Of a stretch of DNA of 64,000 bases, positions 1 to 30,040 are shown piece by piece (position 1 is the stretch's first letter; every line of letters starts with the position of its first letter). This DNA is from Caenorhabditis elegans. Taxonomy: Eukaryota; Nematoda; Chromadorea; Rhabditida; Rhabditidae. The stretch spans positions 1-64,000 of the forward strand of contig NC_003284.9 of NCBI RefSeq assembly GCF_000002985.6, given 5' to 3'. The position numbers were made by a program, and so were the translations under genes. Under the pieces are notes generated by a model. That model was not told the origin of the DNA, made no database searches, and was given only the letters and a program-made list of their open reading frames with translations.

Positions 1-262
1 CTAAGCCTAAGCCTAAGCCTAAGCCTAAGCCTAAGCCTAAGCCTAAGCCTAAGCCTAAGCCTAAGCCTAAGCCTAAGCCTAAGCCTAAGCCTAAGCCTAA
101 GCCTAAGCCTAAGCCTAAGCCTAAGCCTAAGCCTAAGCCTAAGCCTAAGCCTAAGCCTAAGCCTAAGCCTAAGCCTAAGCCTAAGCCTAAGCCTAAGCCT
201 AAGCCTAAGCCTAAGCCTAAGCCTAAGCCTAAGCCTAAGCCTAAGCCTAAGCCTAAGCCTAA
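1..262. repeat. Telomere, (GCCTAA)n, chromosome left end
   Basis: About 44 uninterrupted copies of the nematode telomere hexamer TTAGGC (as GCCTAA on the plus strand) start at base 1. The C-rich strand reads 5'->3' inward, as expected for a left chromosome end. The last four telomeric bases, CTAA (259-262), are also present at the matching place in the internal copy of the adjoining DNA (TTAG at 20381-20384), so the telomere was probably added at a four-base match. Confidence 0.98.
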
Positions 263-3200
263 TCTGTGCTCCAAAGCCTTCGAACTGACGGACTTGTGTC
301 CCGAAGTCGAACTCTTGAAGTTGTCACCGAGTTGGCTAATAAGAAAGACGCTACGTTGTCTTTTTAGTAAGTTTTCGTCGAAATTCTGGAAAAAAAATCT
401 GAAAAAAATGAGAAAAATTGAAGTTTCTTGTGAAAACGTGCAGCAGCCGACAACTAACGGGACTGGGAAAATTGAAATTTTTAACACAGTTAAAATGCGA
501 TGTGCGCATAGTGGGTGAAAGGCCATAATGCGCGCACCGCGTGTGGCGACCACCTATTATGCACCTATCGCGAACGGTTCGCGATGGGTCCATAATGTAT
601 CCATGATGCTTCCACTCACGAAACAAACAATTCGAAATATATATTGTTTTTCCGCCTATTTTTTTAACATTTTATTGCAATTTTTATTGAATTTTTGATT
701 TTCACTGGTTTTTTTTCTTGAAATTTTGTTTCGTATGTGGTATTTTGTAATAATCATAATATTTTTTTCTAAATTGTGTGTCTTTTAGAGAAAACACTGC
801 TCTAACCAGTTGAGGCATTTAAAAACATCATTTAAACAACATGGCAAGCATTATTTCGTTCCTAATAAATGGAAGCATAGTCAGGATTACTGTAGTTTCA
901 CATGTATTTAGCCATTAAAATTGTAATCTGAGTTTTCATCGGTATTTGCGCATACTCAGAAAATTTTGTTAAATATCTTGTCTGTTCCTGTATTTTCAAG
1001 AGCGAAATATCGTCAAAATCAGATTATTTCGTTGAATCTGGAAATGCCCACTGTTCTTCATGCCTACTCGTGTCTATTTCTCATCAGCGTTATAACTCAC
1101 CTTTTAAATAATATTGTAGAAACAAATTTTTTGCAGCTTCTCTTCGAGCAGCAGACTTCACAAAAACTTCATCAACAAGAAAAAACGTGAAAATCTTCAA
1201 CATCGGAATGTCTAGGTGAAGGATGTCGGAACGGGCAAGGTTTGGAGCACGGCTCAGCTTTTTTAGATTTTAGATTTTAATTTAGAAACACACCACCGAA
1301 GAGGAGGAGATAAAGATGGCTCGGCTCCAGAATGCATTGAAAGTTGTTGGATGGTCGAATGGATTGAAAGCAATTGTAAAGAAGGAGTTACCCGGAAGCC
1401 CTGCCAAAAAGCAAAAACCGGCATCGGTTGCGCCGAAAATTTTGGACTCCTCGATCGGAAGAGTGAGTTTGCTGATTTTCAAAAAATAGGATGAAAGGCT
1501 GAATAATTTGAGCTCTCAATTGCTAAAAATATACGGATGGACAAAACTACGATCATCATTGGTCACAAAGTTGCAGCTCCGAAAAGAGAATTCGTCTGGA
1601 ATTCTGGAAGTTCACAAGAATGGTGAGTACTTACCTTTCAAGTGAAAATTGAGGAAAAATTGAGAAAGAAATGTGTTGAAAGATGCAAAAAAATGACAAA
1701 AATTCAGCTTATCCTGCTAAAATTACGCGTGAAAAAGCATATTTTGTGCTTGAAAATCGCAAAAAAAATGCATTAGAAAAACCGATTTTATTTAGTCCTC
1801 CTAACAAATCGATTTTTGTAGACCTGGAGTCATCCTAGCAAACGAGGCAACACTGGAAGAGGACGAAAAACGTTAAGATTCCGTATGAAGATGTCAGAAA
1901 ACCGAGTTAGGAGGAACTTGGAATTAAATTTTTGAGTTTTCTTTTTTCTATAATTTTTTAAGCTCACTTTTTATTCTTTTTGTTGTTCTCCCACTTAGGC
2001 CATGTTAATAAATGTGTTTTTGTTAAGAAAACTGTCTTAAATGCTCAGGATCAGGTTTTATTATTAAAAAAACAAACCCACAAAGCGCACATAATTTATG
2101 TTCGCGATGCTCGCAAAATGCATCTCAAGTTCGCGATGGACGCACAATGCGCGCGCAATGGGCATCATTTCCGGTTCCTTTTTAACACACGCGCGATCCA
2201 CTCCGAAAGCACTATGCGCACATCGCATTTTAACTGTGAATGAAAATTTGAAAAAAAAAACTAAATTTGAGAATTTTTGAGTTAAAAAATTCCAAATTGC
2301 AGAGAAATAAAAAATAAAATTTTTAGAGAATATATCGAAAGAAATTCAAATTTTTAAGAAAAAATCCCAAAAATAAATCATTTTTCTAGAAAAAAAAAGC
2401 AAAAAGTTCCCATTTTGCGATAAAAATCGAAAAAATCCCGATTTTTTTACAATTTTCTAAAAAAAAACTGAAAAAAATCCACATTTTTCAGAAAAAAACG
2501 CTAAAATTTTAATTTTTTCTAGAAAAAAACAAAATTTTCAATAAAAAATCCAAAAATAAAACCAAAATTAAAAAATTATAATAATTACGGGTAAAATCGT
2601 ATGAAATCCCGTTTTTTTTTTAATCGTAATTATTTTCAATTTTTTGGTTTTCTCCTCAAAAAAAATTGTTTTTTTTCCCATTTTTCTTTAAAAATTGAAA
2701 GTTTTCCAATTTTTCTCGAAATATTGACTCAAAATTAGCTTTTTCTTCGAATTTTTAATAAAAATTTTCACTTTCGCGACCCGTTAGTTGTCGGCTGCAC
2801 GGTTTTCTGAAAATTGAGAAATAAAATTAGAAAAGTTGCAAAATTGAAAAAAAAAACCGCAAAAAACTGAAATTTTCTAGGCAAAAAAAAATAAAAGAAA
2901 TCCACAAATTTTTCGATAAAAATTGAAAAAATCCAAATTTTCCTGAAAAAAATCCCAAAAATCCAATTTTTCTACAAAAAAAACCCAAAAATCCACTCCT
3001 TTTCGATAAAAATTTGAAAAAATTTCGATTTTTCAAGAGAAAATTCCGATTTTCTAGAAAAAAAACCCCAAAAAACTATAATTTTCCTTTAAAAAAAACC
3101 CCAAAAATCCAAATTTTTGTACAAAAAATACCAAAAAATCCACATTTTTCAATAAAAATTAGAAAAAAAAAACAATTTTTGCTGAAAAAAAACTCAAAAA

Positions 3201-3429
3201 TCCAATTTTTCTACAAAAAATACAAAAAAAATCACGATTTTCCTGAAAAAAACCCAAGAAACTATAATTTTCCTGAAAAAAAAATCCAAAAAAAAACCGG
3301 GAAAAAAACAAAAGAAATCCAAATTTTTCGATAAAAAAATTGAAAAAATTCCGATTTTTCAGGAATAAATTCGGGAAAAAATTCAATTTTTCTAGTAAAA
3401 AACCCAAAAAAAACCCAATTTTTTTGCAG

Positions 3430-4100
3430 TTTCCGTCACTTCTTCTACCACCGTTTCCACAGTAATCTCATCGAAGGCTCAGGTCGCCTACTCGACAAAA
3501 TTAATGATACTACTGCTGCCCAACAACAACTACAAACTACAAACGAACTCGACGGCGATGGCCCAGAAATTGCAATCGCCGCGGCCAAAGCATTCCATCC
3601 GACTGAAAAATTCGATTTGGAAATGAATGTGGACGACGATGAAATTCTGAAAGTATTTGATATACAAGAACAAGAGCAAATTGTGATGAAAAAAATCCGA
3701 CATTTGGAGAATTCTGACTTACATTTCGAGCGAATTCATGTGAATTTGGCGAAAAAAGAGCGATTTTTTGACGACGTTCAGAGCTCGGAAAATGACTCAA
3801 GCGACGAAAAACTCGCCGAAATTTGCGATTTTTTGAGCCAAAATTGCCGGGAAATCTCGAATGCTGCGAAGCCTCCTCGAGCAACACTTGACGAATGGAT
3901 TCAGACTGGAAAATTCGAAATACAACGTCGTCGAGAGATCCGGGCGGTTTGCCACGTCATCAAGGCCATCGGTCAGATGGGAATTACACTTGGCGAGCTG
4001 TGTGGAAAATTGAAAATTGCCATAGAGCAAATTGCCGGAATTTTGGCCGATTTGAGCGGAGACAAGAAATGGTGTCCGAGACCTTGGATTGCGCCGGAAG
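3430..4100 (+). CDS. tftc-1: Large open exon of the tftc-1-like gene (duplicated at 17213-16543)
   Basis: This 671-base exon lies between TTTTTGCAG and the donor GTTTTC. It stays open in one frame and encodes an N-terminal HFFYHRFHSNLIEGSGRLLD segment, a Gln/Thr-rich patch, an acidic central part (NVDDDEILKVFD; SSENDSSDEK) and a helical C-terminal part (RREIRAVCHVIKAIGQMG, LGELCGKLKI) resembling a winged-helix fold. It joins in frame to 6349. The mirror copy is identical in translation but has no downstream exon. No strong outside match is recalled; its assignment rests on its place in the gene. Confidence 0.7.
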
Positions 4101-4189
4101 GTTTTCTTTTTTTTTTAAGGGATTTTTGGGGCGAAAAATTTGGATTTGGCTCACCACGCGCGAGCTTTGATTTAAAGGTGTTTTCGCGG

Positions 4190-6290
4190 TGAGACCCGGA
4201 AATTTTATTTTTCCTAAATCTCTCTGAACCCGGTCATGATTATACTTAAATGAAAGCTCACGGCGAGCTGAATTCGAATACTAAGTGTATGGTTGTTTAG
4301 CTACAGTAACCTGACACTGAATTTCGCGGCGAGACCCGAAAATCCCCAAAAACTCTCAAAAACCGTCTTAGAATCGATCAAAATATGTCAAGATTATACT
4401 TAAAGGAGGACTAACGGTTCGGACGATTTTGAACGTATAGACCAAAAATAAGCTCAAATGAACGAAATTCGTAATGAAACTGCTCAAAAATTTTTCAAAA
4501 ATTTTTTATGGCGGTTCAAAATTTTGAAAAAAATTACACTGATTTTGGCTAAAATCACGATTTTTTCTCATTTTTCCGTGTCACATTTGTCCGAAGTTGG
4601 TTTTTTTAGAATTATCGTCCTTTATTACATATTTTGGTAATAAATCTCATTTAATTTCGTCGATTAAAGTGCATTTAAAGCCGATAAATAACCAGTTTCG
4701 ATGATTTTTGGTTACCTATCGGCTTTAAATGTACCTTAATCGATGAAATTAAATGAGATAATCTACCAATATATGTAATAAAGGACGATACTTCCAAAAA
4801 AGCCAACTTCGGTCAGATGTGACACGGAAAAATGGGAAAAATTCGTGATTTTAGCCAAAATCAGTGTAATTTTTTTCAAAATTTTGAACCGCCATAAAAG
4901 ATTTTTGAAAAATTTTTGAGCAGTTTCATTACGAAATTCATTTAAGTATAATCATGAGCGGGTTCAGAGAGATTTAGGAAAAATAAAATTTCCGGGTCTC
5001 ACCGCGAAAACTACAGTAACCCTGGAGTTTTCGTGGTGGGACCCGGAAATTTCAATATTTTTCAAACTTCTCAGAACCTGGTCAAGATTATACTTAAATC
5101 AAACCCTTCCTTCTTGGCAGATTTTGATTGTTTTTGATGGTTTTTCGCAATTTTTGGGTCTCACCGCGAAATTCAGCGTCAGGTTACTGTAGCTAAACAA
5201 CCATACACTTAGTATTCGAATTCAGCTCGTCGAGAGCTTTCATTTAAGTATAATCATGCCTTAGTTTGCTTGATTTTGACGAATTTTAGAAATTTTAGGG
5301 TCTCGCCACGAAAAAGTACAGTAACCACACACTGGAAACTGAATATTTTGAATTTTCAGTGGCATCTTTGAGTTTGCCTCGTCGAGAGCTTTTATTTTAG
5401 TATAAACATGACTAGGTTCTGACGATTCTGAAGAATTTTGGAAGTTTTAGGGTCTCGCCGCGAAATTCAGCGTCAGGTTACTGTAGCTAAACAACCATAC
5501 ACTTAGTCTTCGAATTCAGCTCGCCGTGAGCTGAGCTTTCATTTAAGTATAATCATGACCGGGTTCAGAGAGATTTAGAAAAATTAAAATTTCCGGGTCT
5601 CACCGCGAAAACTACAGTAACCCTTTCGAAAAAAACTTAATTTTTGCAGGTCTTTCTTGTATAAATTGTATTTTTCTTCTTTCCTTAAAGTTTGAGCAAG
5701 AAATTGGAACAAATAAAGTCCTGCCGCGAATGCTTCAAGGTTACTGTAGTTTTTGGTGGTGAGACCCGGAAATTTCTTTATTTTTCAAAAATTTCAGAAC
5801 CCGGTCATGATTATACTTAAATGAAAGCCCTTGATGAGCTGACTTTGAAAATGTTCATTAAAATTTTTAAAATGCTAAGCCCCGCCCACTTCTTGGTGGG
5901 TCCCGTCACGAATTTTTGGAAATTATAGTAAAACGCCAATTTCATACTGATTTTGATGAATTTTAACAATAAATTAGCAGTATTTTAAGATTCTGAAATT
6001 AATTTTTTACTGAAATTGGCGAAAAATTGCAGATTTTTACGGGCATCTACAGTAACCTAGGTGGTTTTCGTGGCGGGACCCGGAAATTTCTGAATTTACG
6101 CAAACCTGGTCATGATTATACTTAAATGAAAGCTCCTAGCGAGCTGAAATCGAATATCTATTTCAAATTCGTGTCCCGTCACGAAAACCTACAGTAACCT
6201 GGGCGGTTTTCGTGGCGGGACCCATAAATTCAAATTCTACGGAACCTAGTCATGTTTATACTTAAATCAAAGCTCCTGGCGAGCTGAATT
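4190..6290. repeat. Cluster of a dispersed repeat with core AAGTATAATCATGA
   Basis: At least ten copies, in both orientations, of a unit of roughly 100 bp: AATTCAGCTCG, GAGAGCTTTCATTTAAGTA, TAATCATGAC, GGGTCTCGCCGCGAAA and CTACAGTAACC. More copies lie at 13815-14250, 15120-15720 and 20590-21500. All sit in introns of the tftc-1-like gene. A pair of inverted copies forms the junction between C and A'. Confidence 0.85.
4401..4960. repeat. Fold-back (palindromic) element in the tftc-1-like intron
   Basis: The two halves are inverted around about 4690: ATGAACGAAATTCGTAATGA on the left returns inverted near 4940, and GCCGATAAATAACC is inverted at the centre. The full mirror copy is at about 15683-16242. 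It is a non-coding MITE-like element, and the short reading frame at 4458-4640 is internal to it. Confidence 0.8.
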
Positions 6291-7581
6291 TGAATTTTTC
6301 GGTTTTTTTTTACCACGAAAAATCCATTCAAATAATTTTCTCTTACAGGTTGCATCTCCCTGCCGGTAGTTCGTTGGATGGCTGAAAGTGTTCTGGTTTT
6401 AATTGTTTCAAAGCTTGGAATTCAACTGAAAGACGTCATCACAACATACGAATTCGCTGTTCAACCGATTGCTATTCGAGAAATTGTACGGAAGGAAAAA
6501 AGTGCCAAAAAATCCAAAAATTTGCTCTGAAAACTTGCAAAATCGGAAAAAAAAATGAATTTTTGTGCTAAAATTCACCCTCAAACTTTGAATTTTTACA
6601 TAGCAAGCTCCTGAACCTGTAATAATGTTTTTTTTTTAATTTGGAGTTAAAAAAGCTTTTAAAAAATCGAATTTCTGCTGAAAAATGTTCAAAAACTTAT
6701 TTTTTCCGTTCAAAGACCAGTAAAATACATATTTAACAGTGAAAAACTTGAAAATAAAACTCAAAAATTTTGAAAATGTCTAAAAATCTTAATTTCACAA
6801 TTGAAAAAATTCAAAAATCTCGAATTTTCACCCAAAAAAAATCGTTTTAAAATGTCCAAAAATCGCAATTTTGGCATTTTTTCAAATTTTTTTGGAAGTT
6901 TTCCAAAAAATCTCTGTTTTTCCCGCCGCTCAAAACCCTCAATTTTTCAGATTTCCCTGCTGGAAATGCTCGATTGCATTGAATTTATCACTGAAGAATT
7001 CAAATCTCCAAAAATGACGTCTCCATTCTCATCGCCATCTACCCGACAATCAATCACTTATATTCAAGCGAAAATCGACGGAATTGACAAATTTTCGCGA
7101 ATTTTCCATTCGATTCCACTTTTGAGCACAATGTCATCGAAACCACTCTCTTAAAACTGCAAATTTCTGGATTTTCGACCTTAAAATTTTTAAAAATTCC
7201 CAAAAAATCAAATTTCTGTCAAAATTTCAAGATTTTCCACCCAAAAAAGCTCTGAAAATGCAATTTTTTCAGGCAAAAGTTGCCGAAAAAACCAGATTTA
7301 CTCTTAAAAGGACACACAATATAAAAATTTCGAATTTTTTCAAAAAAAAAAATTAAATTCATATTTTTGGAAATTTTTATTTGAAAAATTCGAATTTTTT
7401 GGAAAAAAATCGGAAAATTTCAAATATTCAATTTTTTTGGGAAAAAATTCCGAAAATTCCAATTTTTAATTAAAAAAAACCGATTTTTCAACATTTTAAC
7501 TGCATTTTAGGACACTTTTCACAATAAAAATGATAAAATTTTCAAAAAAAAAAAGGATTTTGTAGTGTATTCCGAAATAAA

Positions 7582-9323
7582 TCACATAAAATTGAGTTCA
7601 GAAATGAGCTCATCAAGATCATCCAACTTTCTTGGGTTATGAGTCTCAACGTATCCACGTGCATGACGGAAGAATTGGCTCAAATGCTCGCGAAGCTGCT
7701 CGGCAGACGTGTAAACGTCCAAAACTTGCTCAATATCCGGCAGAGAGTGATTCTCGTGTTGAGCGTTACGTGTCGAACCGGGAATTTGTTGCAGGGTCTT
7801 GTAGAGTCGAGGATTGGCACGTTCGATCGAGTTGAACAGCTCCAGCACTTCCTGAAAAATTGGAAAAATTGATTTTCTGGAAAAATTCACAAATTTTTAG
7901 GTGAAAAATTGAAAATTTGGGCATAGCTTCCGCATCTCCAGTGACAAATGTGCTCTATTGCACAAATTGTTGGTTGGAATACGGTATTTATTGCATATTT
8001 CAGCCGAGAATACCACTATTCAAACCATCAATTCGGATAGAGAAACACACAAGTCACAGACAGTATTGGGAAATTCAGTTGCCAAGTTGCCGTATAATTT
8101 TGACCTACTTTGCGCAATGTCTAAAAAGTTGGGTTTCGTCACGAAAACCTGTGGGTTACTGTAGGTTTTTGTGGCGAGACCTAGTTTTTTTCAAAGTTGC
8201 GCAAACTACGGAAAAATTGATTTTCTGGACAAATTGAATGAAAATTCACAAGTTTTTGCTCAAAAAAACGAACATTTGGGAAAACATATTTTCGAGAAAT
8301 TGTCTAAATTTTATTTCTAATTTTAGACGAATCTTCCAAAATCCAAACATTTTCAATTTTTTCCGGAAATAAAGTCGAAAAATCTATTTTTTGTCAATTT
8401 CTTCCGTAACAAATCAGTTTTTTTTCCAATTTTTCTCTGAAAAAAAGGTGAGAAAACAAAGGGTGAGAAAAAAAAATTGTTTAATTTTTCCGGAAAAAAA
8501 CTGAAAAATCCAAAATTTTTGAATTTTCTTCATAAAAAGTCGGGAAAACCCAGAAATTTTCCAATTTTTTCCGGAAAAAAAAAATGGAAAGAACTAAAAA
8601 TTGACTTTTTTCGGAAAAAAAAAGTCTAAAATCCTATATTTTCCGTTTTTTCCTTTGTTTTTCCAAAATCCAAAAAATTTCCAATTTTTCGTAAAACAGT
8701 TAGAAAACCCAAAAATTGACATTTTTTTCCGGAAAAGAAAATTGGAAAGAACCAAAAATTGTTCAATTTTTTTTCGGAAAAAAGTCGAAAATTCTATATT
8801 TTCTGTTTTTTCCTTTGTTTTTCTGAAATCCATAATTTTTCCAATTTTTTTGGGAAAAAATCCAGTAAAAGCCAGTTTTTCGCAAATTTCCATCCAATTT
8901 TCACCCTTAACGGCACAACAACGGACTTGTGCCTCTTCGGCGGTGGCGGGGCAGGCGTCTGCCTCAAAACTCCTTCAAATTCAAGCACATCTCGCATTGC
9001 AGCGTTGGCCTTTCGTTTAGCAGATCTTCCTCGAGTCTCTTCTTCAACAATATCCTCCTCATCCTCGTCAGATTCACTTCCATGATCTTCTTCATCCCCT
9101 CCACCTTCCTTTTGTCGAAGCTCCTTAGCTTCCGACAGTTGCCTTCTACGATCTTCCTTAGTACACTTTGCACACCACCATCCCTCCTTGAAGCCTTCCT
9201 CTTCGAAAAGAGCTCGACTGATCGTTGGACGATGACAAGCTAGAAGCATGTGAAGACACGATGGATTTGAAGCTTCCTGTACACGACGGCAGAAACGTGG
9301 CATTTTTAGATGGGAGAAGCACT
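7582..9323 (-). pseudogene. Unknown gene, 3' two exons (Cys-rich then acidic protein)
   Basis: Exons on the minus strand at 9323-8905 and 7850-7582 (stop TGA) join in phase. The first encodes a Cys/His-rich segment (CFSHLKMPRFC, then ASNPSCLHMLLACHRP, then GWWCAKCTKEDRRR), a long acidic run (GGGDEEDHGSESDEDEED) and a basic patch (RGRSAKRK, PPPPKRHK). The second is a helical C-terminus (LDVYTSAEQLREHLSQFF ending ELNFM). The CxxC plus acidic/basic layout suggests a nuclear zinc-binding protein; the C-terminal helix only vaguely recalls a bromodomain. I do not recognise it. No 5' exons are seen upstream, where SNF exons begin, so it is probably truncated. Confidence 0.5.
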
Positions 9324-9738
9324 CTGGAAAATGCAAAAAGAGTTAAATTTTGACTGAAAATCTAGTTATTTTCCGAATTTTCTGCTAATTTTCGCCTAAT
9401 TTGACATATTTTCATCAAAAAAAAGTCTGGAGATTGAGAAAATTTTAAATTTGGACAGTTTTCAGCCTATTCACATTTTCAGCCAATTTATGACTGAAAA
9501 TGTGAATAAATACAGTTTTTATTCCAGAAATCTGCGTAGGAGCACATAAGTCACTCTGAAAGAGAATGTTCATGTAATTTTGCGATATAAAATTTCCTTT
9601 TTATTTTTTTTTTTCAAATCTAGAAGATTTAATAGTGAGGATTCCTGAGGAAAGTGCAAATTTTCAAAAAAATATTTTTTTGGCGAAAATTGTTTTTTCT
9701 CTTCGAATTCAAATTTTTCACAATTTGCAGAATTTTCC

Positions 9739-9751
9739 ACCCCCCCCCCCC
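9739..9751. repeat. C12 homopolymer (G-tract on the minus strand)
   Basis: A run of about twelve C lies just upstream of the SNF-like exon. Long G-tracts are deletion-prone in C. elegans lacking the FANCJ-like helicase DOG-1 (established knowledge). Confidence 0.8.
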
Positions 9752-9828
9752 TCTCCATTTTTTCAGCTTCCGGGTAATTTCCACCCAAAAAATTCAAATT
9801 CCCCACTTAAAACCCGCCAAATTCTCAC

Positions 9829-11734
9829 CTTAAACAACGGAACCACCTTCCAAACACTAATCGCAGCCGACGAGGAGAACTGTCCAAGTACCATTTCCAT
9901 AAAGAACATTGGTAGTGAGGCGAGGCAGAACATACATAAATATGGTACAAGGAATGCTGCACCGCCATGTTGGAATACTAGAAATGGGAATTTCCAGAAA
10001 CTTCCTGCAAAACGAAGAAAATTGTAAAAATTTTCCAACAAAAAAAATTTTTTTTTCAAGATTTTCCAGAAATTTTCGCGATTTTTCACTGGGAAATTCA
10101 AATTTTTCGTTAAAATCTTACTAAAAAATTCCTAATTGAAAAAATCAGTCACCGAAGTGAATATTTGCGGGGAATTTGAATTTTGGCATGAAAATGCTGG
10201 AAAAATAAATTGAAAGTTGGAAATTTTAATTTTTTGTTGATAAATTTTTTTTCCGAATTTTCCAGGAATTTTCACATTGAAATTCGAATTCTCCGGTTCA
10301 TTTTGCCGCTATTGGACTTTTTTCCCAGAAGCCAGCTTGAAATTTGAATTTCGAGGAGTACGGTAGCCCCAAAAGTACGCAAACACCTGCTAGGCACCGA
10401 ACCTTACGACAATTAGTCCAAATTGACTGAAAATCGGGTTACGGGGGGTGAAAAGTGATGGAGAAGTCGAATTTCGTAATGAAAAACTGTGAAAACCACT
10501 GGAAAAAGTTGAAAATCATGAGTTTTCGGGAAAATTGAAAATTTGGGCATAGCTTCCGCATCTCCGAGTGACAAATGTGCTCTATTGTCAAATTTTTGGC
10601 AGAAATACGGTATTTATTCACATTTTCAGTCCAATTTAAGGCGGAAAATGTGAATAAATACAGTTTTTATGTCATGAATACGAGTAGAAGCACATAAATC
10701 ACGAAAATATCGATTTTTAGAAGATTTTAGGGATTTAAACCGAAATTTTTGTGATTTTCCAGTTAAAAATGTTTTTGTTTTCATTATTTGAACCAAAAAC
10801 TCCAAAAAAAATCGATAAAAATGGCTAGGAACCATCATTTTCAGATTGGTGGCCTAGAACCCCCAAAAGTTAGGCCACCAATCTATTTTGTTCGAAAAAA
10901 CCAATTTCTATGGTAAAAATGAGTGGAAAACTCAATTTACAACTGAAAATTTGAAAAAATTACTAGAAATGGGAGATTTTCGCTTTTAAAATCATTTAGA
11001 CCCAATAAATGACAAAAAAAATGAAAATGTTGAATTTAAACTTTTTTTCCAAAATTTTGGTGTTGAAGTTCGTTTTTAGAAGAAAAAACTATAAAAAATC
11101 AATAGAAAAGTTATTTTTTCGGAAAAAATAAAACAAGTGCGCTCTATTGAGAAAGTACTGAAAATTCGATTTTTTCACTGATTTTGTCTGGTTTCAACGT
11201 GAAAAATAGGTTGAAAAATTGAAATTTCGAGTATTTTTTGCAGAAAAATCGATATTTTATCCATTTTTCCACTGAAAATCCCAAAAATATCCAATGTTTC
11301 ACCAAAAAAAACCCCAAAACAAGAGATGTTAGAACTTTAGAACACACACTCTCTTATCAATTTATAATCTTATCAATTTCTCGCACGTACTCATTTCGTA
11401 TGGTCAGATTATTATCTGTTGATATCGTGGACTTTGGCCCCTGTTTTCGCCGAAAAATCGTAAAAATTCCGGATTTCTGGCCTAAAAATTAGAGAAAGTT
11501 GGTTTTTTCCATGAAAAAGCAGTTAAAAATTGCTATTTTCATCAATTTAATGCGACAAAACTTCAAAAAGCCCCCAAAAATTAACGTTTTTACAAAAAAC
11601 AACGACACTCCGCTAGTACACCAACGCGTGTTGTTTAGCGGTTTGGCGGGAATTCAAATTTCTCGCTTTCTTACCAACTCCCGCTGTGAAACCAATTACT
11701 GCTAGCAGATAATCCGACTTGTTACTCCAATTTC
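9829..11734 (-). pseudogene. SLC6/SNF sodium:neurotransmitter symporter, two N-terminal exons only
   Basis: The exon 11734-11675 encodes NWSNKSDYLLAVIGFTAGVG and the exon 10004-9829 continues in phase with SFWKFPFLVFQHGGAAFLVP and then FFMEMVLGQFSSSAAISVWK. Together these are TM1 and TM2 of the SLC6 family, with the hallmark W(K/R)FPF motif and the GQF-ISVWK segment. SLC6 proteins have about 12 membrane helices; nothing after TM2 is present downstream, where a different gene's exons follow, and no start codon exon is clear upstream. It is therefore a gene fragment. Family assignment is firm; the paralog is not determined. Confidence 0.85.
10130..11600. other. Intron or intergenic DNA without a convincing gene
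   Basis: AT-rich sequence between the two SNF-like exons. It contains a dispersed repeat (GGGCATAGCTTCCGCATCTC at about 10547, CTCTATTG, ACGGTATTTATT) also found at 7918-8000 and 52238-52490, and a small inverted repeat around 9465-9500 and 10618-10665 (CACATTTTCAG / AAAATGTGAATAAATACAG). Confidence 0.6.
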
Positions 11735-11759
11735 CTGAAAAAAAATTTTTTTCACAAAA

Positions 11760-13250: not shown

Positions 13251-15416
13251 AAACACCGACTACCGTAACCCAGAACACCGGATTTTACGCAATTTTGAGC
13301 TAAAGCTTTGAAGTTTAAGGGTTAGGCGTGAAAAATCGAGTAGAATTCGAGTTTGTTAATAAAAATTTGCTGAAAATTATGGAATTTCTGGAAATTTTGA
13401 ACTTTTAAATCAATTTTTGTTACTTTCAGACTCCTCGAATCCCAAAAAAGCGAAAATTGGATAGTGTGGATATTGTCAGCTCATCGGCCCGTGTCAGTGT
13501 CCGCTGCCGTTTTACACCCAAGGAACGCGACCAGCTAATCATGATTCGATTTTGGCCGTCGGCTTCTTCTTGAATCCGGTCTATCGTTTCTGGTTGGATC
13601 CAACAGTTCTTCGTGATTTGATGCATGAATTCGTACCGGAAAGCCGAAATAAGACGGTCCAAAGCCTGATGGCTTGTGGAGTTCGTGAGCTTGTTCGGGA
13701 CAATCGTCTGGCCTATTTGCAGCGGGTTGTCCGGAATTTGTCCACTTTTCCGGTGGGTTTTTGGGCCTTTTTCGGTGAATTCGAGTTTTCTGTGAAAAAA
13801 ATTAATAAATTTGAACTTAGCTGACCGAGAGCTTTCATTTAAGTATAATCATGACTAGATTCCGTTAATTTTAAAGTTTTTTTTTTGGTCCCGCCACGAG
13901 ATTACTGTAGTTTCGCGGCGAGACCCGAAAAATTTCAAAATTAACGGAACCTAGTCATGATTATACCTAAATGAAAGCTCAGCTCTCGGCGAGCTGAATT
14001 CGAATTTCTTTAAATTTAGCGAAAATTTTGAAAAAAGTCTGAAAATGTTGGGTCCCGAAGCGACATTTGTTCGAAAACTTTTTTTCTGGCAAAATAAGCT
14101 TTATAATTCAAAAAAGCATAGTAATAGTTAAGTTTTGAAAAAAAATTGGAAAAAAAAATCCCCCGGGTTACTGTAGTTTTTCGCGGTGGGACCCAAAAAT
14201 TTGCAATTTTCTCAGAACCCGGTCATGATTATACTTGAATGAAAGCTCTCGGCAAGCCGAATTCAAAAACATCATTGAATTTTGTGCGAAATCTCTAAAA
14301 TTTTGTGTTTTTCCAGGAAATGCGCCGCCTCCGATCGGAACTCTGCGGCACCAGTATCCCCAACACATTCAAAAACGGAATTTTTCAAAGACGCTTTCAG
14401 AACCGCAATGGTTCTTCTTTTTGTGTAGGAATTTCGATAAAAAAATTTGAATTTTTCGCTAGTTTTCCGGAAAATTTTTTTTTCCCTATTTTTCAATTTT
14501 TTCCCAAAAAAAAATCGGAAATTTCAAATTTCAACTAATTTTCTCAAAAAATGTGTGTTTTTTTTTTGGAAAAATTTAAATATTTCGCTAGTTTTCTCGA
14601 AAAAATGAATTATTTTCTAATTTTTTGGAAAAAATTAAAAGATTTTTTCGCAAATTTTGCCAACAAATATAATTTTTTCCGAAAAATTCCGATTTTTCGC
14701 TATTTGTTTCAAAAATTTCCGAAAATTTTGGAATTTTCCATAATTTTCTTGTAAAATTCGCAATTTTTGGCGAAAAATTTGGTTTTTTTTCAAAAAATTT
14801 ACTAGTTTTCTCAATTTTTCTTTAAAATTCTAAAATTCCACACTGATTTTCGCCCCATTTTTCAGCGACAACAACCGTACTACAATGACCGATGCGAGGT
14901 TCCGTTCGTTTTTGAACGCTGGAAATGTGTCTGTAACTAAAGAGATTACGGTATCCAACTCGGTTCCCCATCGATCACAGAAGCCTGTCACCTATGGACA
15001 TATTCAACATTGTGTGGCGGCTAATATATTGATTGTACGGGGTTTTTTGGCGCGAAAATTTGATCTAAATTGGATTTTTTACTCGAAATTTCAAAAATTA
15101 TTGATTTTTCTTCAAAAATATTAGATTATTCGAATTCAGATCATCGAGAGCTTTCATTTAAGTATAATCATGACCACGTTCCGCTGATTTTGAAATTTTT
15201 TGTAAAATTTTTCAAATTTAACGGAACCTGGCCATGTTTATACTAAAATAAAAGCTCTCGACGAGGCAAACTCAAAGATGCCACTGAAAATTCAAAATAT
15301 TCAGTTCCCAGTGTGTGGTTACTGTACTTTTTCATGGCGAGACCCTAAAATTTCTAAAATTCGTCAAAATCAAGCAAACTAAGGCATGGTTATACTTAAA
15401 TGAAAGCTCTCGACGA
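13251..15416 (+). repeat. Arm C of the 2.2 kb inverted duplication
   Basis: Position x matches the reverse complement of 36885 minus x (partner 21469-23634). One difference seen is a serine codon (TCG) near 15083 against tryptophan (TGG) in the partner. Homology stops sharply at 13251: left of it is an A-run, while the partner continues with GTTTGCGTAC at 23631-23640. The arm contains three exons of the tftc-1-like gene in sense orientation and is joined at its right end to A' in the opposite orientation. Confidence 0.94.
13430..15034 (+). pseudogene. tftc-1: TFIIIC subunit 1-like gene, internal three-exon fragment
   Basis: Exons at 13430-13752, 14317 to about 14425 and 14866-15034 duplicate those at 23455-21851. 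The first reads TPRIPKKRKLDSVDIVSS, then RFTPKERDQLIMI, then in a different frame AVGFFLNPVYRFWLDPTVL and PESRNKTVQSLMACGVREL. The frame changes between 13541 and 13556. The same shift is present in the partner copy, so it predates the duplication or is a shared assembly feature. The fragment has no exons on either side in the same orientation. Confidence 0.7.
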
Positions 15417-18400
15417 GCTGAATTCGAATACTAAGTGTATGGTTGTTTAGCTACAGTAACCTGACGCTGAATTTCGCGGTGAGACCCAAAAATTGCGAAA
15501 AACCATCAAAAACAATCAAAATCTGCCAAGAAGGAAGGGTTTGATTTAAGTATAATCTTGACCAGGTTCTGAGAAGTTTGAAAAATATTGAAATTTCCGG
15601 GTCCCACCACGAAAACTCCAGGGTTACTGTAGTTTTCGCGGTGAGACCCGGAAATTTTATTTTTCCTAAATCTCTCTGAACCCGCTCATGATTATACTTA
15701 AATGAATTTCGTAATGAAACTGCTCAAAAATTTTTCAAAAATCTTTTATGGCGGTTCAAAATTTTGAAAAAAATTACACTGATTTTGGCTAAAATCACGA
15801 ATTTTTCCCATTTTTCCGTGTCACATCTGACCGAAGTTGGCTTTTTTGGAAGTATCGTCCTTTATTACATATATTGGTAGATTATCTCATTTAATTTCAT
15901 CGATTAAGGTACATTTAAAGCCGATAGGTAACCAAAAATCATCGAAACTGGTTATTTATCGGCTTTAAATGCACTTTAATCGACGAAATTAAATGAGATT
16001 TATTACCAAAATATGTAATAAAGGACGATAATTCTAAAAAAACCAACTTCGGACAAATGTGACACGGAAAAATGAGAAAAAATCGTGATTTTAGCCAAAA
16101 TCAGTGTAATTTTTTTCAAAATTTTGAACCGCCATAAAAAATTTTTGAAAAATTTTTGAGCAGTTTCATTACGAATTTCGTTCATTTGAGCTTATTTTTG
16201 GTCTATACGTTCAAAATCGTCCGAACCGTTAGTCCTCCTTTAAGTATAATCTTGACATATTTTGATCGATTCTAAGACGGTTTTTGAGAGTTTTTGGGGA
16301 TTTTCGGGTCTCGCCGCGAAATTCAGTGTCAGGTTACTGTAGCTAAACAACCATACACTTAGTATTCGAATTCAGCTCGCCGTGAGCTTTCATTTAAGTA
16401 TAATCATGACCGGGTTCAGAGAGATTTAGGAAAAATAAAATTTCCGGGTCTCACCGCGAAAACACCTTTAAATCAAAGCTCGCGCGTGGTGAGCCAAATC
16501 CAAATTTTTCGCCCCAAAAATCCCTTAAAAAAAAAAGAAAACCTTCCGGCGCAATCCAAGGTCTCGGACACCATTTCTTGTCTCCGCTCAAATCGGCCAA
16601 AATTCCGGCAATTTGCTCTATGGCAATTTTCAATTTTCCACACAGCTCGCCAAGTGTAATTCCCATCTGACCGATGGCCTTGATGACGTGGCAAACCGCC
16701 CGGATCTCTCGACGACGTTGTATTTCGAATTTTCCAGTCTGAATCCATTCGTCAAGTGTTGCTCGAGGAGGCTTCGCAGCATTCGAGATTTCCCGGCAAT
16801 TTTGGCTCAAAAAATCGCAAATTTCGGCGAGTTTTTCGTCGCTTGAGTCATTTTCCGAGCTCTGAACGTCGTCAAAAAATCGCTCTTTTTTCGCCAAATT
16901 CACATGAATTCGCTCGAAATGTAAGTCAGAATTCTCCAAATGTCGGATTTTTTTCATCACAATTTGCTCTTGTTCTTGTATATCAAATACTTTCAGAATT
17001 TCATCGTCGTCCACATTCATTTCCAAATCGAATTTTTCAGTCGGATGGAATGCTTTGGCCGCGGCGATTGCAATTTCTGGGCCATCGCCGTCGAGTTCGT
17101 TTGTAGTTTGTAGTTGTTGTTGGGCAGCAGTAGTATCATTAATTTTGTCGAGTAGGCGACCTGAGCCTTCGATGAGATTACTGTGGAAACGGTGGTAGAA
17201 GAAGTGACGGAAACTGCAAAAAAATTGGGTTTTTTTTGGGTTTTTTACTAGAAAAATTGAATTTTTTCCCGAATTTATTCCTGAAAAATCGGAATTTTTT
17301 CAATTTTTTTATCGAAAAATTTGGATTTCTTTTGTTTTTTTCCCGGTTTTTTTTTGGATTTTTTTTTCAGGAAAATTATAGTTTCTTGGGTTTTTTTCAG
17401 GAAAATCGTGATTTTTTTTGTATTTTTTGTAGAAAAATTGGATTTTTGAGTTTTTTTTCAGCAAAAATTGTTTTTTTTTTCTAATTTTTATTGAAAAATG
17501 TGGATTTTTTGGTATTTTTTGTACAAAAATTTGGATTTTTGGGGTTTTTTTTAAAGGAAAATTATAGTTTTTTGGGGTTTTTTTTCTAGAAAATCGGAAT
17601 TTTCTCTTGAAAAATCGAAATTTTTTCAAATTTTTATCGAAAAGGAGTGGATTTTTGGGTTTTTTTTGTAGAAAAATTGGATTTTTGGGATTTTTTTCAG
17701 GAAAATTTGGATTTTTTCAATTTTTATCGAAAAATTTGTGGATTTCTTTTATTTTTTTTTGCCTAGAAAATTTCAGTTTTTTGCGGTTTTTTTTTTCAAT
17801 TTTGCAACTTTTCTAATTTTATTTCTCAATTTTCAGAAAACCGTGCAGCCGACAACTAACGGGTCGCGAAAGTGAAAATTTTTATTAAAAATTCGAAGAA
17901 AAAGCTAATTTTGAGTCAATATTTCGAGAAAAATTGGAAAACTTTCAATTTTTAAAGAAAAATGGGAAAAAAAACAATTTTTTTTGAGGAGAAAACCAAA
18001 AAATTGGAAATAATTACGATTAAAAAAAAAACGGGATTTCATACGATTTTACCCGTAATTATTATAATTTTTTAATTTTGGTTTTATTTTTGGATTTTTT
18101 ATTGAAAATTTTGTTTTTTTCTAGAAAAAATTAAAATTTTAGCGTTTTTTTCTGAAAAATGTGGATTTTTTTCAGTTTTTTTTTAGAAAATTGTAAAAAA
18201 ATCGGGATTTTTTCGATTTTTATCGCAAAATGGGAACTTTTTGCTTTTTTTTTCTAGAAAAATGATTTATTTTTGGGATTTTTTCTTAAAAATTTGAATT
18301 TCTTTCGATATATTCTCTAAAAATTTTATTTTTTATTTCTCTGCAATTTGGAATTTTTTAACTCAAAAATTCTCAAATTTAGTTTTTTTTTTCAAATTTT

Positions 18401-20384
18401 CATTCACAGTTAAAATGCGATGTGCGCATAGTGCTTTCGGAGTGGATCGCGCGTGTGTTAAAAAGGAACCGGAAATGATGCCCATTGCGCGCGCATTGTG
18501 CGTCCATCGCGAACTTGAGATGCATTTTGCGAGCATCGCGAACATAAATTATGTGCGCTTTGTGGGTTTGTTTTTTTAATAATAAAACCTGATCCTGAGC
18601 ATTTAAGACAGTTTTCTTAACAAAAACACATTTATTAACATGGCCTAAGTGGGAGAACAACAAAAAGAATAAAAAGTGAGCTTAAAAAATTATAGAAAAA
18701 AGAAAACTCAAAAATTTAATTCCAAGTTCCTCCTAACTCGGTTTTCTGACATCTTCATACGGAATCTTAACGTTTTTCGTCCTCTTCCAGTGTTGCCTCG
18801 TTTGCTAGGATGACTCCAGGTCTACAAAAATCGATTTGTTAGGAGGACTAAATAAAATCGGTTTTTCTAATGCATTTTTTTTGCGATTTTCAAGCACAAA
18901 ATATGCTTTTTCACGCGTAATTTTAGCAGGATAAGCTGAATTTTTGTCATTTTTTTGCATCTTTCAACACATTTCTTTCTCAATTTTTCCTCAATTTTCA
19001 CTTGAAAGGTAAGTACTCACCATTCTTGTGAACTTCCAGAATTCCAGACGAATTCTCTTTTCGGAGCTGCAACTTTGTGACCAATGATGATCGTAGTTTT
19101 GTCCATCCGTATATTTTTAGCAATTGAGAGCTCAAATTATTCAGCCTTTCATCCTATTTTTTGAAAATCAGCAAACTCACTCTTCCGATCGAGGAGTCCA
19201 AAATTTTCGGCGCAACCGATGCCGGTTTTTGCTTTTTGGCAGGGCTTCCGGGTAACTCCTTCTTTACAATTGCTTTCAATCCATTCGACCATCCAACAAC
19301 TTTCAATGCATTCTGGAGCCGAGCCATCTTTATCTCCTCCTCTTCGGTGGTGTGTTTCTAAATTAAAATCTAAAATCTAAAAAAGCTGAGCCGTGCTCCA
19401 AACCTTGCCCGTTCCGACATCCTTCACCTAGACATTCCGATGTTGAAGATTTTCACGTTTTTTCTTGTTGATGAAGTTTTTGTGAAGTCTGCTGCTCGAA
19501 GAGAAGCTGCAAAAAATTTGTTTCTACAATATTATTTAAAAGGTGAGTTATAACGCTGATGAGAAATAGACACGAGTAGGCATGAAGAACAGTGGGCATT
19601 TCCAGATTCAACGAAATAATCTGATTTTGACGATATTTCGCTCTTGAAAATACAGGAACAGACAAGATATTTAACAAAATTTTCTGAGTATGCGCAAATA
19701 CCGATGAAAACTCAGATTACAATTTTAATGGCTAAATACATGTGAAACTACAGTAATCCTGACTATGCTTCCATTTATTAGGAACGAAATAATGCTTGCC
19801 ATGTTGTTTAAATGATGTTTTTAAATGCCTCAACTGGTTAGAGCAGTGTTTTCTCTAAAAGACACACAATTTAGAAAAAAATATTATGATTATTACAAAA
19901 TACCACATACGAAACAAAATTTCAAGAAAAAAAACCAGTGAAAATCAAAAATTCAATAAAAATTGCAATAAAATGTTAAAAAAATAGGCGGAAAAACAAT
20001 ATATATTTCGAATTGTTTGTTTCGTGAGTGGAAGCATCATGGATACATTATGGACCCATCGCGAACCGTTCGCGATAGGTGCATAATAGGTGGTCGCCAC
20101 ACGCGGTGCGCGCATTATGGCCTTTCACCCACTATGCGCACATCGCATTTTAACTGTGTTAAAAATTTCAATTTTCCCAGTCCCGTTAGTTGTCGGCTGC
20201 TGCACGTTTTCACAAGAAACTTCAATTTTTCTCATTTTTTTCAGATTTTTTTTCCAGAATTTCGACGAAAACTTACTAAAAAGACAACGTAGCGTCTTTC
20301 TTATTAGCCAACTCGGTGACAACTTCAAGAGTTCGACTTCGGGACACAAGTCCGTCAGTTCGAAGGCTTTGGAGCACAGATTAG
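15390..20384 (-). repeat. Arm A' of the 5 kb inverted duplication
   Basis: This is the inverted partner of 259-5253. It is the ancestral-position copy, because it is continuous with D (20385-21468), C' and the upstream exons of the tftc-1-like gene. Its left end (15390-15416) lies in a 27-base tract identical in A and C', where the sequence switches to segment C. Confidence 0.94.
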
Positions 20385-21468
20385 AGCACGGCAGGCGGAA
20401 TTTGATCCAAAATCTTCTCGGGTTGTCCAGCATTCATTTGATGGACCAAGACGCTCTGAAAAATGAAAGTTTTAGATTTTTCCACGGGAAAAATAGTGCA
20501 GAATTTGAGTTTTTTCTCGAAAAAAATGCAAAAAACTGGAAAATTCGGCTTTTACCACAAAATTCTACACAATTTTGATGTAACATTTGAATTCAGCTCG
20601 TCGAGAGCTTTCAATTAAGTATAATCATGACTAGGTTCTGAGAAATTTGAAAAAAGTTGGGTCCCGCCGCGAAGATTACTGTAGTTTTGCAGTTTTCGCG
20701 GCGAGACCCAAATTTTCTCATAGTAAACAGAATCTAGTCATGATTATACTTAAATGAAAGCTCTCGGTGAGCTGAAGTCGAATTTAATGTTAATTTTCTG
20801 AAAATAGAAAAATTTCGGGAAATTTTGGGTCTCGTAGCGAAAACATCAATTTTTTCAAACTTTTATAACTTTTGTAAGGATTTTTCCTTTGGCGTCAGTT
20901 TGCATGTGGTTATGACAATGGTTTGAAAATTTTTGAAAAAATTCGGGTCCTGCGACGAAACCCTACAGTACCCCTGGAATTTCGTGGCGGGACCCAAAAT
21001 TCACAGACCCTTGTCATGATTATACTTAAAAGAAAGCTCACTATATTCCGGAAAATTTCAAAAATTCCGGACTTTCGTGGCAGGACCCAAAGTAGGCGGA
21101 GCCAAATTCGATTTTTGCTACATTTTTCGAGGAAATTTGAATTCAGCTTATCGAGAGCTTTCAATTAAGTATAATCATGACTAGGTTCCGGTAATTTCGG
21201 AAAATATTGGGTCCCGAAGCGAAATTCCCCGGGTTACTGTAGGCCTTCGCGGCGAGACCCAAAAATTTTCGAAATTGACGGAATCTGGTCGTTTTTATAC
21301 TCAAATTGAAGCTGAGAACGAGCTGAGTTGAAACTTCATAACATTTTTCATATTTTTTTTCAGTGAAAATTGAAAAAGTTCTAGATTTTCTGCAAAAAAT
21401 CGATTCGGACCTAAAATTTCGCGAGAAATTCAATTTTCAAGCGAAAAATTTTAATGTCCGAACGCAGA
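20385..21468 (-). other. tftc-1: Segment D, single-copy link between A' and C'
   Basis: It contains the 5' part of the 20455-20277 exon (SVLVHQMNAGQPEKILDQIP) and repeat-rich intron with five or six copies of the AAGTATAATCATGA family. D is absent from the telomere-side copy, so it marks the ancestral orientation. Confidence 0.8.
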
Positions 21469-23634
21469 TCGTCGAGAGCTTTCATTTAAGTATAACCATG
21501 CCTTAGTTTGCTTGATTTTGACGAATTTTAGAAATTTTAGGGTCTCGCCATGAAAAAGTACAGTAACCACACACTGGGAACTGAATATTTTGAATTTTCA
21601 GTGGCATCTTTGAGTTTGCCTCGTCGAGAGCTTTTATTTTAGTATAAACATGGCCAGGTTCCGTTAAATTTGAAAAATTTTACAAAAAATTTCAAAATCA
21701 GCGGAACGTGGTCATGATTATACTTAAATGAAAGCTCTCGATGATCTGAATTCGAATAATCTAATATTTTTGAAGAAAAATCAATAATTTTTGAAATTTC
21801 CAGTAAAAAATCCAATTTAGATCAAATTTTCGCGCCAAAAAACCCCGTACAATCAATATATTAGCCGCCACACAATGTTGAATATGTCCATAGGTGACAG
21901 GCTTCTGTGATCGATGGGGAACCGAGTTGGATACCGTAATCTCTTTAGTTACAGACACATTTCCAGCGTTCAAAAACGAACGGAACCTCGCATCGGTCAT
22001 TGTAGTACGGTTGTTGTCGCTGAAAAATGGGGCGAAAATCAGTGTGGAATTTTAGAATTTTAAAGAAAAATTGAGAAAACTAGTAAATTTTTTGAAAAAA
22101 AACCAAATTTTTCGCCAAAAATTGCGAATTTTACAAGAAAATTATGGAAAATTCCAAAATTTTCGGAAATTTTTGAAACAAATAGCGAAAAATCGGAATT
22201 TTTCGGAAAAAATTATATTTGTTGGCAAAATTTGCGAAAAAATCTTTTAATTTTTTCCAAAAAATTAGAAAATAATTCATTTTTTCGAGAAAACTAGCGA
22301 AATATTTAAATTTTTCCAAAAAAAAAACACACATTTTTTGAGAAAATTAGTTGAAATTTGAAATTTCCGATTTTTTTTTGGGAAAAAATTGAAAAATAGG
22401 GAAAAAAAAATTTTCCGGAAAACTAGCGAAAAATTCAAATTTTTTTATCGAAATTCCTACACAAAAAGAAGAACCATTGCGGTTCTGAAAGCGTCTTTGA
22501 AAAATTCCGTTTTTGAATGTGTTGGGGATACTGGTGCCGCAGAGTTCCGATCGGAGGCGGCGCATTTCCTGGAAAAACACAAAATTTTAGAGATTTCGCA
22601 CAAAATTCAATGATGTTTTTGAATTCGGCTTGCCGAGAGCTTTCATTCAAGTATAATCATGACCGGGTTCTGAGAAAATTGCAAATTTTTGGGTCCCACC
22701 GCGAAAAACTACAGTAACCCGGGGGATTTTTTTTTCCAATTTTTTTTCAAAACTTAACTATTACTATGCTTTTTTGAATTATAAAGCTTATTTTGCCAGA
22801 AAAAAAGTTTTCGAACAAATGTCGCTTCGGGACCCAACATTTTCAGACTTTTTTCAAAATTTTCGCTAAATTTAAAGAAATTCGAATTCAGCTCGCCGAG
22901 AGCTGAGCTTTCATTTAGGTATAATCATGACTAGGTTCCGTTAATTTTGAAATTTTTCGGGTCTCGCCGCGAAACTACAGTAATCTCGTGGCGGGACCAA
23001 AAAAAAAACTTTAAAATTAACGGAATCTAGTCATGATTATACTTAAATGAAAGCTCTCGGTCAGCTAAGTTCAAATTTATTAATTTTTTTCACAGAAAAC
23101 TCGAATTCACCGAAAAAGGCCCAAAAACCCACCGGAAAAGTGGACAAATTCCGGACAACCCGCTGCAAATAGGCCAGACGATTGTCCCGAACAAGCTCAC
23201 GAACTCCACAAGCCATCAGGCTTTGGACCGTCTTATTTCGGCTTTCCGGTACGAATTCATGCATCAAATCACGAAGAACTGTTGGATCCAACCAGAAACG
23301 ATAGACCGGATTCAAGAAGAAGCCGACGGCCAAAATCGAATCATGATTAGCTGGTCGCGTTCCTTGGGTGTAAAACGGCAGCGGACACTGACACGGGCCG
23401 ATGAGCTGACAATATCCACACTATCCAATTTTCGCTTTTTTGGGATTCGAGGAGTCTGAAAGTAACAAAAATTGATTTAAAAGTTCAAAATTTCCAGAAA
23501 TTCCATAATTTTCAGCAAATTTTTATTAACAAACTCGAATTCTACTCGATTTTTCACGCCTAACCCTTAAACTTCAAAGCTTTAGCTCAAAATTGCGTAA
23601 AATCCGGTGTTCTGGGTTACGGTAGTCGGTGTTT
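21469..23634 (-). repeat. Arm C' of the 2.2 kb inverted duplication
   Basis: This is the inverted partner of 13251-15416. It is continuous with the rest of the tftc-1-like gene at 23635 and beyond, so it is the ancestral-position copy. Confidence 0.94.
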
Positions 23635-29320: not shown

Positions 29321-30040
29321 GCAAAAACTGTACCTGATGATTGATATTATCAGATCTAACAGTTGTATCAAAAAGTCGTACGAATCCTTTCGTTTGGAGT
29401 GCCAAAAGGCATTTCATCACCGATTTTTTGTCGATCTGGAATGGAAAATTGGGATTTTTAGTGGAAATTTTGGGAAAAATCTGCAAATTTTGATAATTTT
29501 TCACTGAAAACTTGAAATTATCGAATTTTGGGCATTTTTAAGCGAAAAATGAGCAGTTTTTGTCTGATTTTTCTCGTTTTTTGACATTTTTTCGTTGAAA
29601 AAACGTTAAAATTAACAATTTTCGACCCATTTTAATGGAAAATAGGCAGTTTTTGCTCTTTTTTCCTCAATTTTCAGCTCAATTAACCTGAAATTTATAT
29701 CCATCAGCCATTTCCTGCTCGCATATCGTTTTTATAAGTCGACTAATTGTCACAATAACTCTGAATCGGTTAACCAATGCAATAATTCGATTGAATCGCT
29801 TCAAAGTGACGTCACTGACGCGTAGAGTGTCTGAAAATTGACATTTTTAGCTGATTTCAGTGGGAAAAAATGTGTGAAATTTTGAATTTTAGGGTTAAAA
29901 TTCGAATTATTGGGGGAAAATGTGAGTTTTTCGCTGAAAAAAATGTCTAAAAATGCAGAAAATTAGCCAGAAAATTGAATTTTTAGCTGATTTTATTAGG
30001 AAAAATGTGTGACATTTTGAATTTTAGGGTTAAAATTCGA

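Follow-up and report, generated by a model that had tools for sequence, protein, structure and literature searches.

Nested inverted duplications at the left end of Caenorhabditis elegans chromosome X, a probable scar of fold-back DNA synthesis after telomere loss

The left end of chromosome X carries two nested, near-identical inverted duplications directly inside its telomere, and these are probably the natural scar of a telomere loss that was repaired by fold-back DNA synthesis. The window analysed is the outermost 64,000 nucleotides of the contig NC_003284.9, which we take to be chromosome X of the reference strain N2, and the long-range order of its segments is taken from the reference assembly. 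The segments, repeats and joints are the following.

Telomere, 1–262, minus strand: 43.7 perfect units, TTAGGC on the minus strand
Outer arm A, 259–5253, plus strand: inverted copy of 15390–20384, apparently telomere-healed at 259
Repeat L, 5227–5410, plus strand: partner of R (181/184 identical), at the A/B boundary
Segment B, 5254–13250, plus strand: mosaic of diverged copies from several chromosomes
Derived joint B/C, 13250–13251, no strand: an A-run against AAACACC
Segment C, 13251–15416, plus strand: inverted copy of 21469–23634
Derived joint C/A', 15390–15416, no strand: inside the 184-bp repeat, with the crossover in its last 27 bp
A', original copy, 15390–20384, plus strand: ancestral continuity into D
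1.76-kb element, 18402–20158, plus strand: 97% like chromosome I 3,523,665–3,525,433, present also at 485–2241 in arm A
Segment D, 20385–21468, plus strand: without a second copy in the duplicated block
C', original copy, 21469–23634, plus strand: 22859–23980 aligns unbroken to chromosome IV 2,374,745–2,373,647
Repeat R, 21469–21652, minus strand: inverted relative to the ancestral L copy, with 6,052 bp of A'-D between them

Inverted arms, joints and telomere

Arm A and its inverted copy pair at a position sum of 20643 with a single mismatch in 4,995 bases, at 2636 (site 2636/18007, T in A and C in A' on the A strand). Segment C and its copy pair at a position sum of 36885, again with one mismatch, at 15084, in 2,166 bases. 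Both pairs lie where the original prediction placed them, and together they differ at 2 of 7,161 bases. Past 5253 the inverted pairing of A runs on as far as 5410 (157 bases, 3 mismatches), since the repeat located there has a second copy in C'. C and C' are separated in the reference by 6,052 bp (15417–21468), within which D is single-copy in the block and A' was copied again as arm A by way of the second jump.

Near-identical inverted copies thus occupy the chromosome end, and the edge of the spacer shows the inverted homology that characterizes a fold-back inverted duplication: L and R agree at 181 of 184 positions (98.4%) and lie 6.05 kb apart. This divergence, 3 of 184 positions against 2 of 7,161 in the arms, shows that L was not made by the event. 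The junction that the two duplications had been proposed to share at 15390–15416 is present, but is refined here to the last 27 bp of this inverted repeat. Bare microhomology was rejected as an account of the C/A' joint since the joint sits in the 184-bp repeat; judged from the sequence, the switch was most likely guided by pairing of the pre-existing inverted repeats. Little homology is visible at the B/C joint.

CTAA at 259–262 is common to the telomere and arm A. The telomere begins after the 4-base seed TTAG at 259, so that the outer end is capped by a new telomere placed after a few telomere-like bases, as in telomerase healing. The seeds at IV-left, III-right and V-right are CT, CTT and GCTT, respectively. 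All four are close to TTA or CTT, at which most C. elegans telomeres start according to the available part of one report (PMC9071541).

Ancestral order of the duplicated block

A diverged paralog on chromosome IV (2.374–2.382 Mb) keeps the order C-D-A-B. Its alignment is unbroken across 20384 (168 of 172 columns identical) and across 23634 (145 of 165), which leaves telomere/A, B/C and C/A' as the new joints. The exons of the gene originally called "tftc-1-like" are collinear on IV and X, and the exon that spans 20384 matches IV at 98% protein identity over 58 residues. The original prediction had read the order C-D-A-B from this gene; the paralog, spanning two breakpoints without a gap, agrees and supports it as the ancestral order of the block. 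X 4943–5416 (474 bp, against 89 bp on IV) and X 21351–22858 lack a collinear counterpart in the paralog, which consequently leaves the A/B and D/C' borders without base-level coverage and gives no view of the L/R pair before the event.

Segment B combines diverged copies of IV 2.380–2.382 Mb (5417–7320), IV 1.328–1.325 Mb (7323–9469) and III 1.5295–1.532 Mb (9468–11910) with an 84-bp piece resembling I 12.808 Mb (11911–11994). Among the matches listed by the search, 11995–13250 had none above 73% identity, and the search returned no source for the DNA distal to 13250. The 1.76-kb element is missing from the IV paralog; its presence also in arm A places its insertion before the duplication. No significant Pfam match was obtained with the exons, no significant PDB sequence match with those in A and C (best E 0.099), and a set of 5.8 billion proteins returned a single hit to the A exon, identical and unlabelled. 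As these searches gave no name, "tftc-1-like" remains the label of the original prediction.

Inverted duplications at other chromosome ends

Four of the 12 chromosome ends, X-left, IV-left, V-right and III-right, have a near-identical inverted duplication that begins at the telomere. The last three show the simple form of spacer, inverted arm and telomere. At IV-left, 149–23657 pairs with 24224–47730, giving 23.5-kb arms with 8 mismatches and 2 gap letters in 23,509 columns (0.03% divergence). At V-right, 182–1119 pairs with 2537–3475 (98.5%), and at III-right 208–346 pairs with 594–732 (98.6%), an arm divergence of 1.0–1.4%. A repeat at the fold-back is visible at X-left only; the other three ends would hide it within their arms. 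II-right was not counted among the four, its outer arm beginning 71 bp inside the telomere end. The comparison covered the outer 3 kb of II-right and III-right and 10 kb of V-right.

No such structure was found at I-left, V-left, X-right, III-left and I-right with probes of 1.5–2.1 kb and scoring of the best candidates (the best 40 of 1,104, 40 of 452 and 40 of 234 at I-left, V-left and X-right, and all 23 and 13 at III-left and I-right); these five of the 12 ends count against the fold-back reading. The probe survey could miss a short arm far inside, and self-comparison of the outer 3 kb catches short arms near the end. II-left was probed only from 523, satellite-like DNA beginning at 173, and the satellite end IV-right lay outside the survey.

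Inverted pairs of at least 130 bp at 98% identity were absent from X 24000–64000 by blastn and numbered two in 105,500 internal bases, both in IV 2.365–2.391 Mb. An arm edge within 3 bp of the telomere would accordingly arise by chance about 5e-4 times per end, a figure from control stretches that were not random, and the rarity of pairs in this internal control excludes chance pairing.

Candidate mechanism, alternatives and meaning

On the preferred reading, an uncapped end of an ancestral chromosome ordered outside-B'-A'-D-C'-inside would have copied its own subtelomere for repair. One template switch would have taken place at the pre-existing 184-bp inverted repeat, with R at the C'/D border and L at the A'/B' border, and the other would have linked the outer end of B with the inner edge of C. 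Copying through A' would have halted in an exon, leaving an end reading ...CAGATTAG, to which telomerase would have added GC(TTAGGC)n. The joints support the two switches and the telomere addition originally proposed, with the telomere added at TTAG. The duplications, the ancestral order, the three joints, the repeat at one of them and the telomere seed are observed; we infer the loss of an end as the trigger, synthesis rather than end-joining as the source of the joints, and the order of the steps. In an order leading to the reference arrangement, L would fold back on R and C' would be copied inward, followed by a jump to B-A of the sister or homologue. In an order leading to a flipped isomer, B' would prime from its eroded outer end within C' and copy 2.2 kb outward, after which fold-back at R/L would allow A' to be copied inward, the distal DNA being kept. 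The two orders yield identical joints.

The flipped isomer competes with the reference order and not with the fold-back explanation. It is a serious possibility, if the less probable one, that the reference records one of two isomers and that the end truly runs, or first ran, Tel-A-C*-B'-A'-D-C', which preserves the ancestral order. The isomers, which differ by a flip of B-C between the A arms, share all their words at every size tried as far as 2,000 bases and differ at 4,000, the next one tried; 5-kb arms at 99.98% identity would be expected to recombine. The flipped isomer has the same joints, leaves the ancestral B'-A'-D-C' intact and requires no lost DNA; against it stands the unflipped order of the reference assembly.

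A breakage-fusion-bridge cycle is an unlikely origin, though the sequence by itself fits both dicentric breakage and break-induced replication. In this scheme, sister recombination between L and R would give a dicentric that breaks at 23634 and is ligated to the outer B of another chromatid, and a second dicentric would break at 20384 and be healed. The C/A' joint is the expected product of dicentric formation at inverted repeats, and in yeast, as described in the available part of PMC10164571, inverted repeats separated by 12 bp or by 30 kb fold back in single-stranded DNA to give dicentrics and inverted duplications; in the same system telomere addition healed 0 of 12 clones, which counts against fold-back with healing. 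The cycle, however, requires two breaks and one ligation, and the palindromes seen in C. elegans with defective telomerase (Lowden 2011) did not fit it, as the available part of PMC4981268 relates. An assembly error, in which clone rearrangement or wrong joins produced the inverted arms, is very improbable. Inverted repeats are hard to clone and the arms differ at just 2 bases, but the joints agree with an independent paralog, C/A' crosses within the repeat, the telomere joint is seeded, and the same form recurs at three other ends with arm divergence. Least probable of all is that arm DNA rich in transposons underwent an ordinary inverted-repeat duplication and merely happens to sit next to the telomere; several repetitive elements do occur within the arms, yet at 4 of the 12 ends the outer arm begins right at the telomere, far above the chance expectation given above.

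Repair by fold-back synthesis and subsequent telomere healing is already known. As far as the accessible text of PMC3907307 goes, human germline fold-back inverted duplications (Hermetz 2014) share with X-left the inverted duplication, a spacer and a hybrid repeat at the joint; their spacer is single-copy ("disomic"), repeats of ~300 bp lay at 3 of 21 sequenced joints, and the ends were capped by telomere or foreign DNA. X-left differs in its kilobase scale, in lying at a natural chromosome end in a reference genome and in a second jump within the event. The system of PMC4981268, in its available part, likewise combines end loss, fold-back at an inverted repeat and a terminal palindrome; at X-left the repeat is 184 bp, its copies are 6 kb apart and telomere repeat eventually capped the end. 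Subtelomeric DNA was also copied onto uncapped ends in telomerase-mutant C. elegans fusions with terminal duplications (Lowden 2011, as excerpted in PMC9071541), but those events end in mutant chromosome fusions and X-left in a wild-type reference telomere. TALT duplications (Seo 2015, PMC4595603, available part; DL226, PMC9066243) resemble X-left in that internal DNA was copied beside the telomere, and differ in having telomeric-repeat flanks and tandem arrays. The X-left copies are inverted, two of each, and all 42 window matches to TTAGGCTTAGGC (at most 1 mismatch) lie in 5–262; a TALT origin was rejected for want of interstitial telomere repeats at the joints.

A limited literature search found no report of fold-back with healing at wild-type C. 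elegans ends, and earlier notice elsewhere is possible. Such end repair has been described from telomere-maintenance mutants and human disease; X-left presents the same anatomy in the reference of a wild-type model animal, where the repeat that probably drove the event can still be seen at one end and a paralog supplies the ancestral order. A further warning is that wherever inverted arms are longer than the reads, the order of subtelomeric segments given in a reference is ambiguous. More broadly, and with somewhat less than even confidence, wild-type C. elegans may repeatedly replace lost telomeres in the germline in two stages: at inverted homology the end would fold back and copy as much as tens of kilobases of its subtelomere, and telomerase would then cap the product. 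The four N2 reference ends would then be scars of different age, a natural end would be a product of turnover, and the X-left arms would act as a natural flip-flop switch. The anatomy at X-left makes natural end turnover testable over sequenced wild strains, as to which ends are affected, how frequently and at which repeats.

Inverted pairs and ancestral order at the left end of X

Positions 1-262 of the window are perfect telomere repeat. The two inverted pairs of the original prediction are present as claimed: the outer arm A (259-5253) differs from its original copy A' (15390-20384) at one of 4,995 positions, and C (13251-15416) from C' (21469-23634) at one of 2,166 (genome compared: seven contigs, 100,286,401 bases). 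A ~540-bp palindromic dispersed element lies at 15701-16243 and 4400-4942 (many copies genome-wide, 83-93%). A second, ~1.6-kb dispersed element at 30039-31631 has at least dozens of copies, of 89-95% identity and on all six chromosomes, among the best 39 of 2,451 candidates.

A search of 5254-23634 against the same genome identified a diverged paralog on chromosome IV. Local alignment places C, D (X 20385-21468), A and the start of B (X 5254-13250), in that order, at IV 2,373,994-2,382,116 (pieces of 75-96% identity), which bears out the proposed original order C-D-A-B. The exon-like pieces of one gene run C, A/D border, A on the IV plus strand and the X minus strand. Inward of C' the match continues from IV 2,373,846 to 2,372,103 at 84% and is thereafter patchy to X 28.8 kb. 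Because the alignment passes unbroken over 20384 (168 identical columns of 172; end gaps of the excised segment account for two of the other four) and over 23634 (145 of 165), the A'-D and C'-inner junctions are ancestral and the telomere/A and C/B joints are new. The paralog lacks collinear counterparts of X 4943-5416 (89 bp versus 474) and X 21351-22858, so it is the flanks that back the A/B and D/C' borders.

Joints and a possible route through the flipped isomer

The C/A' switch involves a repeat pair:
5227-5410, repeat L, 181 of 184 positions identical to R
21469-21652, repeat R, 181 of 184 positions identical to L

In the ancestral order L and R are inverted with 6,052 bp between them. 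At each of the three positions where L and R differ, the C/A' joint has the R-type letter, and its shift to A' falls inside the last 27 bp. The pair is older than the event, since L and R diverge by 1.6% versus 0.03% between the copied arms; neither repeat was seen in the IV paralog, where collinear counterparts of X 4943-5416 and 21351-22858 are missing. Data given for a human fold-back series have ~300-bp repeats of this kind used at 3 of 21 sequenced joints (PMC3907307). Results described for yeast single-stranded DNA indicate that repeats behave alike whether separated by 12 bp or by 30 kb; in that inverted-repeat system telomere addition healed 0 of 12 clones (PMC10164571).

On the outward strand X-left reads ...CAGATTAG followed by GCTTAGGC, whereas the inner copy at the matching position reads ...CAGATTAG followed by AGCACGG; the telomere was therefore added after TTAG. 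The addition site lies inside an exon-like stretch whose protein is 98% identical to IV. According to statements in a review (PMC9071541), most C. elegans subtelomeres have repeats that start with TTA or CTT; TTA is also the start of the de novo telomere me8.

Flipping the block between the A arms does not alter which 2,000-base words the first 30 kb contains, and at 4,000, the next size tried, the words differ; we infer that a span of ~2.6 kb, set by base 2636, would tell the isomers apart. The flipped isomer holds B'-A'-D-C', the ancestral outside-to-inside order, intact, so an eroded B' end could have primed in C'; synthesis would then have run outward until a fold-back at R/L.

An older mosaic in segment B

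Segment B contains matches to DNA elsewhere in the genome (89-94% in the main pieces of the first three):
5417-7320, matches IV 2.380-2.382 Mb
7323-9469, matches IV 1.328-1.325 Mb
9468-11910, matches III 1.5295-1.532 Mb
84-bp piece, matches I 12.808 Mb at 98%

Across 5417-11994, diverged copies of DNA from the interior of IV and III, gene pieces included, are joined in varying orientations. This mosaic is an older round of end patching, and predates the inverted duplication because it is far more diverged. A 126-bp stretch of IV (1,325,033-1,325,158) is absent from X between 9238 and 9239; it equals 42 residues that look like a PHD-type finger in sequence, and a Pfam search of the corresponding X piece gave no PHD match. 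The absence suggests that the interior was the source and the X piece the copy. For 11995-13250, the genome search gave nothing above 73% identity among the best 40 of 77 candidates.

Other chromosome ends, ages and overall reading

Telomere-abutting inverted duplications occur at four of the 12 ends (X-left, IV-left, V-right and III-right), a count that rests on boundary comparisons at all ends but II-left (probed from 523 only) and IV-right. The pair at IV-left (149-23657 / 24224-47730, 99.957%, spacer 566 bp) begins at the telomere. Those at V-right (182-1119 / 2537-3475, 98.5%, arms 938 bp, spacer 1.4 kb) and III-right (208-346 / 594-732, 98.6%, arms 139 bp, spacer 247 bp) abut it. At these three ends the telomere starts after 2-4 telomere-like bases.

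With probes whose start lay 0-22 bp from the telomere, no near-identical inverted copy that begins at the telomere edge was listed at I-right and III-left, nor among the best 40 candidates at I-left (of 1,104), V-left (of 452) and X-right (of 234). Self-comparison of the outer 3 kb of these five ends gave no inverted pair above 85%. The 1.8-kb probe adjoining the I-right telomere has direct copies instead, its inner half at 15,063,237-15,064,163 (927 bp, 100%) and its outer half at 15,068,261-15,069,167 (94%); at I-left, 1.6 kb in, lies an inverted piece of 98% identity that belongs to a set of many dispersed copies. Control stretches, a non-random sample of paralog sources or window remainder, held two inverted pairs (at least 130 bp, at least 98%) in 105,500 internal bases.

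II-right carries a 100% inverted pair of 264 bp (263-526 / 1773-2036) starting 71 bp from the last telomere unit. At 263-560 from that tip the outer copy ends ...GGGTAG, then GCTTAGGCTTAGGCC pointing inward, as if a once-healed end had later been joined inward.

Assuming 2.7e-9 mutations per site per generation, the two mismatches in 7,161 positions of the X-left arms date them to about 5e4 generations (95% range 6e3-1.9e5); IV-left comes to about 6e4, with V-right and III-right roughly 30-50 times older. These figures would shift with gene conversion between the arms or with errors in the reference. The 38-kb inverted translocation described near a chromosome IV telomere in CB4856 (PMC12239620, G3) is compatible with strain differences at a IV end and, as described, does not show the IV-left palindrome.

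In the literature searched we found neither the wild-type setting, nor the visible repeat, nor recurrence at several ends. The inverted structure at X-left is real in the reference, and its best reading is fold-back repair, in which an end is rebuilt by copying its own subtelomere; repair of this kind is known.
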